Positions 33,242 through 35,238 of a stretch of 64,000 nucleotides of DNA are shown here, in pieces. The notes under the pieces were generated by a model. The model ran no database searches, was not told where the DNA came from, and was given only the letters and a program-made list of their open reading frames with translations. The DNA is taken from the NCBI RefSeq assembly GCF_030531065.1, contig NZ_JAUNOQ010000003.1:1-64000 (forward strand), read 5' to 3'. Both the position numbers and the translations under genes were made by a program. Each line of letters opens with the position of its first letter. The first letter of the stretch is position 1. The stretch comes from Phascolarctobacterium sp. Lineage in GTDB: Bacteria > Bacillota > Negativicutes > Acidaminococcales > Acidaminococcaceae.

Positions 33242-33274
33242 TATTACTATCGTTTTATGAAAGAAGGTTGGTTC

Positions 33275-34303
33275 ATGCAATTTTTCCAAAAGAATTTTAA
33301 AGGCATTCTGCTTTGCTTACTTATTTCTATACCCTGCTGGTTCCTGGGCAAAATTTTCCCGCTGGTGGGCGGCCCGGTCTTCGCCATCCTCGCGGGAATG
33401 CTCATCACGCTGTTTATTAAAAATAAAACGCCTCTGCAAAGCGGCGTAAATTTCGTTTCCAAAAAAATTCTGCAATATGCGGTTATTTTATTGGGCTTCG
33501 GTTTGAATTTATCCGTCGTCCTGCAAACAGGCAAGCAATCGCTGCCCATCATTATTACGACCATCGCCACCTCGCTCGTTATCGCCTGGGCGCTGCACAA
33601 GCTGCTGCGCATCCCCGGCAAAATTTCCACGCTCGTTGGCGTGGGTTCCTCCATTTGCGGCGGTTCGGCAGTAGCGGCTACGGCTCCCGTTATCAAAGCC
33701 AACGACGAAGAAGTAGCGCAGGCCATCTCCGTCATTTTCTTTTTCAATATGGTGGCCGCGCTCTGCTTCCCGACTTTGGGAATGCTGGTGGGTTTTTCTA
33801 CCGGCAGCGGCGAAGCCTTCGGCATTTTTGCCGGCACGGCGGTCAACGACACTTCGTCCGTCACGGCGGCAGCTGCGACCTGGGATTCCATGCACCACCT
33901 CGGCTCGGCGACGCTGGATAAAGCCGTCACCGTAAAATTGACGCGCACGCTGGCGATTATCCCCATCACCATGGCGCTGGCCTGTCTGGCGGCGAAGGGC
34001 GGGCAAAGCGACGGGCAAAAATTCAGCGTCAAAAGCGTCTTTCCGTTTTTCATAATTTATTTCGTACTGGCTTCTTTAATTACTACCGTAGCTTTAAATA
34101 TGGGCGTCGCCAACGAAGCCTTCACCCCGCTAAAGAACCTGAGCAAATTTTTTATAATTATGTCCATGAGCGCCATCGGGCTGAATACAAACATCATTAA
34201 GCTGATTAAAACGGGCGGCAAGCCCATCCTCATGGGTTTCTGTTGCTGGGTCGGCATCACGTTCGTCAGCCTTGTCATGCAGCATTGCCTGGGACTGTGG
34301 TAA
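33275..34303 (+). CDS. YeiH/UPF0324 family putative sulfate exporter
   Basis: The 342-residue membrane protein has about ten spans and the family landmarks [19 protein letters not shown] near 125, [20 protein letters not shown] near 190 and a conserved [11 protein letters not shown] near 300. YeiH-type proteins are annotated as sulfate or taurine-derived anion exporters on limited evidence. ATG 33275 is preferred since GAAGGTTGG precedes it; ATG 33257 has no ribosome site. Confidence 0.88.
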
Positions 34304-34317
34304 AAGGCGTAGGAAAT

Positions 34318-34438
34318 TTGACTTTTTGCTTTCGCCTTGCTATAATATAAATACAAAGAGACGCTACCGATAAGCGGTTGTCCCTTAAACTTTAGTTAAA
34401 AATAACCGCAAGTTTCCGAGGCTCGGCGGTTATTTTTT
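34318..34438 (+). ncRNA. Small RNA 1, antitoxin-like, with its promoter
   Basis: A strong promoter TTGACT (34318-34323), 17 bp, TATAAT (34341-34346) leads within about 90 nt to a terminator, AAATAACCGC (34400-34409) with GCGGTTATTT (34426-34435) and a T run. No ORF lies between. The design (5' hairpin, small AT-rich hairpin, GC terminator) copies small RNA 2 nearby. The opposite strand could encode the tail KNNRR seen in holin-like toxins, so this may be an antitoxin whose toxin has decayed. Confidence 0.6.
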
Positions 34439-34478
34439 TGCGTTTTTGCCAAAAGCATATTATGCTTTATTGAACACA

Positions 34479-34603
34479 TTGACTATTTTTTAATTAAGCC
34501 TTATAATAAAGGAAGAGATAGCCGACCGTGGGAAGTCAGCTCTCCCCTTCTAACTTAAAAAGTTGACGGAAGACCGCTTAACCGCACGTTAGGCGGTTTT
34601 TCT
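34479..34603 (+). ncRNA. Small RNA 2, type I antitoxin, with its promoter
   Basis: TTGACT (34479-34484), 17-bp spacer, TATAAT (34502-34507), then about 90 nt ending in a terminator AACCGC/GCGGTT (34580-34598) and T run. The transcript converges on the toxin gene and shares its terminator, so the two RNAs overlap at their 3' ends. AAGTCAGCT (34533-34541) is also exactly complementary to AGCTGACTT in the toxin mRNA 5' region (34730-34738). This matches antisense RNAs of RatA/SR4 type. Confidence 0.72.
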
Positions 34604-34607
34604 CATT

Positions 34608-34691
34608 TTATCGCGGACGATTAAACGAGAGAATGAGGACTACTAACGTGGCAAAACTTATCATCAACGACAAGGCTTCTGCAACCGTCAT
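34608..34691 (-). CDS. Holin-like type I toxin, 27 residues
   Basis: MTVAEALSLMISFATLVVLI plus LSFNRPR is a single hydrophobic span with a short basic tail. It closely follows the pattern of Firmicute putative holin-like toxins (MTVxEALxLMIxFxxLV). GGGGGTG lies five bases upstream, next to a hairpin CTACC-TACG-GGTAG that could hide the ribosome site. The gene has a strong own promoter and a convergent antisense RNA. Expected to insert in the inner membrane when unrepressed. Toxicity is inferred from the family. Confidence 0.8.
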   Translation of the reverse strand: MTVAEALSLMISFATLVVLILSFNRPR

Positions 34692-34751
34692 GCCATCACC
34701 CCCTACCCGTAGGTAGTAGGAAAACCGACAAGTCAGCTATCTCTGAAAACC

Positions 34752-34780
34752 ATTATATCATATACTATTCTTTCTGTAAA
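34752..34780 (-). promoter_or_regulatory. Toxin promoter
   Basis: Minus strand TTTACA (34775-34780), 17-bp spacer and TATAAT (34752-34757). The start point near 34745 gives a ~54-nt leader containing AGAGATAGCTGAC, which resembles the 5' end of small RNA 2 (AGAGATAGCCGAC). Confidence 0.75.
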
Positions 34781-34811
34781 CGCGCCGTCGCATTTTGCGG
34801 CGGCGCGTTCG
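34779..34811. terminator. GC-rich hairpin between toxin promoter and next gene
   Basis: CGCGCCGTCGC and GCGGCGGCGCG pair with one mismatch around TTTT-containing loop bases. It separates the toxin locus from the next minus-strand gene and may be a back-up terminator. Confidence 0.5.
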
Positions 34812-34818
34812 CTTTTAA

Positions 34819-34880
34819 TAAAGAAATAGCGCTTTGGCGCAGCAACCTGTACTTCGCCAAAGCGTTAAACATTCTATTTC
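34819..34880 (-). terminator. Terminator of the cysteine-motif small protein gene
   Basis: AACGCTTTGGCG and CGCCAAAGCGCT form a long stem, extended by GAAATAG-type pairing at its base (GAAATAG / CTATTTC), then a T-rich tail on the minus strand. Confidence 0.7.
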
Positions 34881-34881
34881 C

Positions 34882-35238
34882 TTACAGCATTTCTTCCTTA
34901 TGTTCTAAAATTGCTTTGCAGGCAGCGCAAGCCGGGCAGTCGCAGTAAGTCGCGCCAGCGCCTTTAATTTCTTCCGCATGAGCCAAAATATTTTTTGCCA
35001 GCTCCGCGCCGAAAACTTTTACGCCGGCTTCCGACCCGGCGAAAGCGATTAAGCCGTCGATGGGCATAATATCCGCCTCCAGCTCGGCGATATATTTTTC
35101 CGTCGCCGCTTTTTCGCCGTCAGTGCCAACGGCGGCAATCCAGGCTTCGGCTGCGGCCTTTATTTCCTTGCAGGCGCTTGGAGCGGCCAGCAAAGCTTTA
35201 GTTTGTTCTGCAACAAAGGTTTCTATTTCTTTTTTCAT
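34882..35238 (-). CDS. Conserved small protein with C-terminal Cys cluster
   Basis: I do not recognise a functional family. The 118-residue protein is acidic and helical and ends with YCDCPACAACKAILEHKEEM, giving a C-x-C-x-x-C-x-x-C cluster suited to a metal or redox centre. The middle part DIMPIDGLIAFAGSEAG is hydrophobic. GGAGG lies before the ATG and the gene has its own promoter and terminator. Similar proteins in anaerobes have been labelled as chaperones, which the sequence does not support. Confidence 0.7.
   Translation of the reverse strand: MKKEIETFVAEQTKALLAAPSACKEIKAAAEAWIAAVGTDGEKAATEKYIAELEADIMPIDGLIAFAGSEAGVKVFGAELAKNILAHAEEIKGAGATYCDCPACAACKAILEHKEEML

Follow-up and report, generated by a model that had tools for sequence, protein, structure and literature searches.

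The question raised by the locus at positions 34479-34780 of a 64,000-nucleotide stretch of Phascolarctobacterium sp. DNA (assembly GCF_030531065.1, contig NZ_JAUNOQ010000003.1, positions 1 to 64,000; the whole stretch is called the window below) is why two RNAs, predicted to be transcribed towards each other, begin with nearly the same sequence. A preliminary description of the locus had suggested a type I toxin-antitoxin system, in which a small hydrophobic peptide is encoded on the minus strand, a convergent antisense RNA is made from the plus strand and both transcripts end in one bidirectional terminator. The present analysis points, with good probability, to a type I toxin-antitoxin cassette in the chromosome that is of the bsrG/SR4 kind and encodes a Hol_Tox membrane peptide, with a message closed by its own leader and an antitoxin gene placed in the 3' untranslated region (UTR) of that message. 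The type I assignment is supported by the peptide family, by conservation in many copies, by purifying selection and by the match to bsrG/SR4, while the wiring needs to be revised.

In the proposed arrangement the toxin mRNA (about 240 nt) would start near 34745 and end near 34506, just before the antitoxin promoter. Its 5' leader would pair with the 3' end of the same mRNA, complementary to the antitoxin 5' end, and this closed helix, together with a hairpin over the ribosome site, would keep the full-length message poorly translated. The antitoxin (about 95 nt), made from the opposite strand within the toxin 3' UTR and ending at the middle hairpin, would pair along its whole length with the toxin message, most likely leading to RNase III cleavage and decay. 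A shortage of antitoxin would then allow the peptide to be made and, by analogy with BsrG, to damage the cell membrane. If the antitoxin lies inside the toxin 3' UTR and the leader pairs with the 3' end of the mRNA, both RNAs would be expected to begin alike. The parts, their recurrence, the selection on the peptide and the co-evolution of the leaders are read from sequence, and the terminators and folds are predictions; transcript ends, the 5'-3' helix in the cell, the part played by RNase III, toxicity and the biological role are inferred.

The 27-amino-acid open reading frame (ORF) at 34608-34691 on the minus strand is present as described (translation MTVAEALSLMISFATLVVLILSFNRPR) and has a single hydrophobic span with a best 19-residue mean of 2.36. 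Comparison with profiles of holin-like toxins, which had been proposed as a check, gave a match to Pfam PF16935 (Hol_Tox) of 33.6 bits (E 3.6e-8, cut-off 23.3). Hol_Tox was the only family found in a Pfam scan of the peptide up to E 1; no Fst model was matched, and the peptide is not assigned to the Fst family. Membership in ComI (NF052249) was tried and rejected, as residues 1-22 aligned with 22.1 bits, far under the cut-off of 55.

The window genome (2.37 Mb in 27 contigs) contains copies of the peptide at 8 places according to tblastn and at 11 according to the Pfam model, and Hol_Tox matches at E <= 0.01 were found in 17 of the 61 genomes searched. Of 69 Hol_Tox matches, 53 were read as cassettes (all 11 in the window genome and 42 of the 58 others), and removal of L038 and 4 near-duplicates left the 48 cassettes used below. 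Five of these were dropped for the folds of the long mRNA and the direction of leader differences (43 cassettes) and 11 for the spacer and arm-specificity tests (37 cassettes). A wider set of 80 named loci from many genera was reduced to 68 (32 from Negativicutes and 36 others) by excluding L149, which has a short leader, and 11 near-duplicates.

In 8 of 8 own-genome cassettes read base by base, the antitoxin -35 box TTGAC, both -10 boxes and both AGAGAT-like RNA starts are present, the toxin -35 box varies, and the ORF is open in 7. This recurrence makes the set of parts more than a chance arrangement. The changes in the ORF among own-genome copies of the window type are almost solely synonymous; L001 and L002 differ in codons 2-22 by 11 synonymous substitutions and 1 non-synonymous one, and the absence of such conservation had been named as a ground for refuting the locus. 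Among 39 intact ORFs of the main type, pN was lower than pS in 740 of 741 pairs, which are not independent. The predominance of synonymous change indicates selection on the peptide, and as judged from these comparisons it is under strong purifying selection. The locus thus holds a small hydrophobic peptide gene maintained by selection and, as predicted, an antisense RNA gene with its own promoter and terminator that is conserved together with the toxin, both of which are expected of a type I system.

Some of the loci in the window genome (G000) depart from the common form. L006 (G000:C16:15369-15443) has an early stop in the toxin ORF and an antitoxin gene that looks intact; it was retained for the analyses of RNA structure. 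L007 seems to carry, in tandem downstream of its complete cassette, an additional antitoxin half (G000:C19, around 70865). A further AGAGATAGTCTG start-like site at G000:C8:2426-2437 lies outside all cassettes read and is possibly an orphan antitoxin gene. L039 (G000:C25:1180 and 1536) consists of two tandem cassettes with a more distant Hol_Tox peptide (MKNFSFQDLMAFGMFIIALLTFIRLMCQ, 25.5 bits), and its leaders match in the copy tested.

The sequence AGAGATAGC(C/T)GAC was found at the 5' end of both RNAs, as reported earlier. When toxin and antitoxin leaders of the 48 cassettes were compared in the same sense, the local score was 28.9 for cognate and 17.0 for non-cognate pairs, a cognate score reached by none of 20,000 permutations, nor by any of 20,000 within genomes. 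The 68 named loci gave 23.6 against 16.1 (0 of 5,000 permutations). The 95th percentile of pairs from other genera was exceeded in 38 of these 68, and the percentile of the locus's own group in 22 of the 32 Negativicutes and 12 of the 36 other loci. The common leader block of Veillonella differs from that of Phascolarctobacterium, yet it is again the same on both RNAs. Since cognate leaders are closer than non-cognate ones, they change together rather than drifting independently from a common origin; on the sequences compared, the leaders co-evolve locus by locus.

The leader likeness is not accounted for by pairing within the antitoxin itself. Grouped by the predicted fold of the antitoxin, leader identity in 74 loci was 434/500 at unpaired and 520/593 at paired positions, and identity that is equally high at unpaired positions shows that pairing with the antitoxin's own arm is not the explanation. 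The antitoxin hairpin A1:A2 (arms in Table 1) is cognate-specific (-12.2 vs -10.0, 0 of 20,000 permutations). Duplex energies of the whole toxin and antitoxin 5' ends are weakly so (-22.3 vs -20.5, reached by 11 of 20,000 permutations and by 153 of 20,000 within genomes). No consensus structure emerged from MAFFT alignments of the 5' ends of either RNA, antitoxin or toxin, probably owing to misalignment of bulges that differ in length. Arm exchange between identical hairpins was rejected as the main mechanism, as the toxin hairpin T1:T2 is without specificity and A1:T2 has little, unlike A1:A2 of the antitoxin.

The differences between cognate leaders have a direction. Of 155 leader differences in 43 cassettes, 82 are transitions that keep G-U pairing possible (toxin U for antitoxin C, or G for A) and 8 are the reverse. 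The direction holds in 11 of 11 genomes; the non-cognate baseline is 1651 to 863, and other genera gave 101 to 35. Pairing of the toxin leader with the complement of the antitoxin leader would be expected to produce this direction. That complement belongs to the toxin strand, so such pairing requires a toxin mRNA that extends through the antitoxin region. The common 5' ends are therefore, on this comparative evidence, best read as reflecting the toxin mRNA's own 5'-3' helix.

Terminators were predicted as hairpins of at least 6 pairs and -7 kcal/mol followed by at least 5 T in the next 8 bases, with bulges allowed; the position limits of the scans differed slightly (80-140 and 75-145). In the window copy the middle hairpin passes on the antitoxin strand (-17.4 kcal/mol), where its T run lies, and fails on the toxin strand, so the common bidirectional terminator of the preliminary description is not upheld. 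On the toxin strand it is the far terminator that passes (about 34550-34504, -18.3 kcal/mol). A toxin-strand terminator at the antitoxin start was found in 39 of the 48 cassettes, in 25 of the 32 Negativicutes loci and in 33 of the 36 other named loci, compared with 10 of 136 shuffled sequences and 10 of 64 real regions taken from far away; the shuffled controls cover the 68 named loci, not the 48 cassettes. The 10 bases behind the complement of the antitoxin arm are 64% U on the toxin strand and 33% at the corresponding place of the toxin promoter. The antitoxin-strand terminator at the middle hairpin was found in 43 of the 48 cassettes and 26 of the 32 named Negativicutes loci. The toxin mRNA thus probably reads past the middle hairpin to the terminator at the antitoxin start. 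In this compact form the antitoxin 5' hairpin would, in its complement, double as the toxin terminator.

On folding, the predicted long mRNA closes 5' to 3' in 43 of 43 loci, which largely follows from the leader likeness itself. On average 13.9 of its first 16 nt are paired with the last 48, and 7.6 nt when the 3' end is taken from another genome. At least 2 of the 5 Shine-Dalgarno bases are paired in 42 of 43 leaders, a fold prediction without a shuffled control, and the leader hairpin reported beside the ribosome site was recovered by folding. The 9-base complement to the toxin leader, AAGTCAGCT, exists as claimed, and the complementarity probably spans the whole antitoxin. For 9 own-genome cassettes the predicted duplex averages -181 kcal/mol with the cassette's own antitoxin, -80 with those of paralogs and -117 with the best paralog, as follows from full complementarity should the long mRNA exist. 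The copies would in that case be mostly insulated, and close paralogs (antitoxin identity up to 0.88) might cross-talk.

An arrangement like par of pAD1, in which the middle hairpin terminates both RNAs and the antitoxin works by way of complementary loops in the terminator plus a short pairing of A2 with the toxin 5' end, is unlikely. It shares the convergent promoters and the hairpin over the ribosome site described for par (PMC7472228). The complementarity of A2 is greater for the leader of its own toxin than for other leaders (-10.2 vs -8.9 kcal/mol, reached by 3 of 20,000 permutations and by 10 of 5,000 within genomes), the direct-repeat likeness exceeds its permutations by a little (reached in 25 of 5,000), and 17 of the 48 cassettes have a passing toxin-strand terminator at the middle hairpin. 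Against it stand the terminators of the window copy, the size of the direct-repeat likeness (15.8 vs 15.0, small beside the same-sense 23.6 vs 16.1), the equally high leader identity where the antitoxin's own arm leaves positions unpaired and the match of the peptide to Hol_Tox rather than to an Fst model.

Gene conversion or template switching between inverted repeats, rather than selection on pairing, is a still less probable origin of the leader likeness. Errors of replication could homogenize inverted repeats that lie about 200 bp from each other, and the identity does cover bulges and part of the loop. Such a process predicts no direction, whereas the transitions run 82 to 8 in the pairing-keeping sense. 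The spacer between the -10 box and the arm is moreover not alike (0.18 cognate vs 0.21 non-cognate in 37 cassettes, a measure depressed at its edge, where the local alignment ends), which places the beginning of the likeness near the transcription start. That the cassette is a decayed or silent repeat without toxin activity is very unlikely, because the window copy has an intact ORF, ribosome site and pair of promoters and the nearest paralogs differ almost solely synonymously, although the ORF of L006 (1 of 8 own-genome cassettes) is broken, a neighbouring locus of a second family lacks its toxin half and the lack of a cassette behind the same transporter gene in relatives (below) suggests that the copy is not old at this place.

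Several results weigh against a long toxin message closed by its leader. A simple, stricter scan of 34200-35100 gave no minus-strand terminator at all, so that the far terminator needs the laxer criterion, and it was not found in 9 of the 48 cassettes and 10 of the 68 named loci, including L005 and L006 in the window genome (2 of 8). A toxin-strand terminator at the middle hairpin was predicted not only in the 17 of 48 cassettes but also in 15 of the 32 Negativicutes and 16 of the 36 other loci; a short toxin mRNA may therefore exist beside or instead of the long one. By the criterion used here, none of the 36 loci outside the Negativicutes has an antitoxin-strand terminator at the middle hairpin. 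With chimeric 3' ends, 104 of 172 folds still contain a 5'-3' helix of 6 nt or more. In the 68 loci a control, the toxin leader against an upstream stretch, was also above permutations (16.6 vs 14.6, 10 of 5,000), which means that part of the leader signal in this set is local composition. The remaining 65 of the 155 leader differences are transversions, not favoured by pairing, and among the 27 other genera taken singly, 18 agree with the direction of transitions and 5 oppose it. In the second toxin-antitoxin-like family (below), 3 of 4 rows have the cognate leader pair in first or joint first place. The middle hairpin of that family carries a T run on each strand although its leaders resemble each other, and the long toxin mRNA may thus not be the sole reason for the likeness.

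The cassette sits between a transporter-like gene (33257-34303, PF03601) and a 118-amino-acid ORF, and its parts are collected in Table 1. Both promoters were found as previously given, TTTACA-17-TATAAT at 34780-34752 (minus) and TTGACT-17-TATAAT at 34479-34507 (plus), each with 11 of 12 matches. The region 34200-35100 has 3 promoter-like sites, compared with 1.2 (sd 1.1) in shuffles. A search of Rfam with gathering thresholds gave no match at this locus. The same transporter gene occurs in 5 relatives, and inspection by eye of approximately 520 bases behind it revealed no cassette in any of the 5, so either the window copy is recent or the other copies have been lost. The other 7 tblastn copies lie in gaps among other protein genes. 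L004, L007 and L008 are, by eye, near paralogous genes resembling S-layer-type porins or outer-membrane proteins.

Table 1. Positions of the observed and predicted parts of the cassette and of the adjoining relic in the window.
Feature	Position	Strand	Basis
Toxin promoter, -35 TTTACA	34775..34780	-	promoter scan
Toxin promoter, -10 TATAAT	34752..34757	-	promoter scan
Predicted toxin mRNA, about 240 nt	34506..34745	-	start from promoter, end from predicted terminator, analogy to bsrG
Toxin leader arm T1 (AGAGATAGCTGAC), same sense as antitoxin arm A1	34732..34744	-	
Toxin leader arm T2 (GTCGGTTTTCC), similar to antitoxin arm A2	34719..34729	-	
Predicted hairpin adjoining the ribosome-binding site	34703..34716	-	fold prediction
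Shine-Dalgarno sequence AGGGGGTG	34697..34704	-	by eye
Toxin ORF, 27 amino acids, Pfam PF16935 Hol_Tox	34608..34691	-	ORF, profile match, selection
Antitoxin promoter, -35 TTGACT	34479..34484	+	promoter scan
Antitoxin promoter, -10 TATAAT	34502..34507	+	promoter scan
Predicted antitoxin RNA, about 95 nt, within the predicted toxin 3' UTR, directly next to the toxin stop codon	34514..34608	+	
Antitoxin arm A1 (AGAGATAGCCGAC)	34514..34526	+	
Antitoxin arm A2 (AAGTCAGCTCTCCC), predicted to pair in cis with A1; holds the 9-base complement of T1	34533..34546	+	
Middle hairpin, predicted antitoxin terminator	34568..34602	+	T run on antitoxin strand
Predicted toxin-strand terminator, complement of the antitoxin 5' hairpin with U-rich tail (CTTTATTA), -18.3 kcal/mol	34504..34550	-	
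Relic of a second, distinct toxin-antitoxin-like family (antitoxin-like RNA gene); toxin half missing here	34318..34450	+	

The relic belongs to a second multicopy family, of which the antitoxin-like RNA gene has 8 long matches in the genome (34318-34450 of the window and 7 others, L079-L085, of 75-85% identity). In L079, L082, L083 and L085 the opposite strand encodes a different hydrophobic peptide of about 29 amino acids (e.g. MNILEILALLSLVIACISLGYMIGRNAKK), for which no Pfam match was found up to E 1; the L082 peptide has matches in 5 of the 61 genomes at E <= 0.01. In L081, L082, L083 and L085 the leader on the toxin side looks similar to that on the antitoxin side, and L081 seems to be without a start codon. 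The window copy has lost its toxin half and directly adjoins the Hol_Tox cassette.

Leader likeness with directional wobble co-evolution could, as a tentative generalization, be a signature of self-closing toxin mRNAs with an antitoxin gene in the 3' UTR. It would run through Hol_Tox in Negativicutes, Bacilli and Clostridia, recur in the second, Pfam-less family and be usable to find type I loci without knowing the peptide. The comparison of leaders provides a test, from sequence alone, of how the toxin message closes on itself, and the second peptide family suggests that further loci could be found through matching leaders on convergent RNAs. The class itself is already known. What appears to be new is the branch in Negativicutes with its many copies per genome, along with the compact form and the co-evolution signature; a literature search of partial coverage found no report of a Hol_Tox type I system in Negativicutes. 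The present locus would place the bsrG/SR4 kind in gut Negativicutes at high copy number.

Among the known systems compared, aapA/IsoA of Helicobacter pylori and hok/Sok have peptides of families other than Hol_Tox. According to PMC6733600, their message is closed by a 5'-3' long-distance interaction with ribosome-site hairpins, and several module-specific copies occur per genome, as is proposed or seen here. IsoA pairs with the processed mRNA over about 80 bp (PMC6733600), whereas here the antitoxin lies in the predicted 3' UTR. The par locus (Fst/RNA II) of pAD1 has, as PMC7472228 describes it, the same convergent promoters, small membrane peptide and ribosome-site hairpin, with a peptide of another family. 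Its direct repeats cover the initiation site and its terminator is common to both RNAs (PMC7472228), whereas the main likeness here is in the same sense at the 5' ends; the toxin-strand middle terminator fails in the window copy, for which no common terminator is predicted, and passes in 17 of 48 cassettes. The txpA/RatA and bsrE/SR5 systems of B. subtilis, as PMC6562991 describes them, also have a masked ribosome site.

The closest likeness is to bsrG/SR4 of SPbeta. In NC_001884, where the locus is not annotated, a 38-amino-acid ORF between yokL and yolA was taken for BsrG, and it matches Hol_Tox with 34.5 bits (33.6 here). The bsrG leader has a same-sense match of about 38 bases to the SR4 strand with a score of 34, which 2 of 500 shuffles reach, and 3 of 3 substitutions are of the pairing-keeping kind. 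The distance from the bsrG promoter to the predicted toxin-strand terminator is 291-297 nt, depending on the assumed start, and the position of this terminator fits the 294 nt published for bsrG mRNA (180 nt for SR4; PMC6562991). For bsrG RNA the same source describes a helix P1, a terminator loop and RNase III cleavage, and a ribosome site masked in GC pairs; the masking here is predicted by folding. Both systems thus have the same toxin family, a predicted toxin-strand terminator at the antitoxin start, alike leaders and a predicted 5'-3' main helix. The present cassette differs in its peptide (27 vs 38 amino acids), its predicted mRNA (about 240 vs 294 nt) and its predicted antitoxin (about 95 vs 180 nt). 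The predicted toxin terminator, a separate hairpin in bsrG, is here the complement of the antitoxin 5' hairpin, and the cassette is multicopy, with this copy beside ordinary genes rather than in SPbeta.
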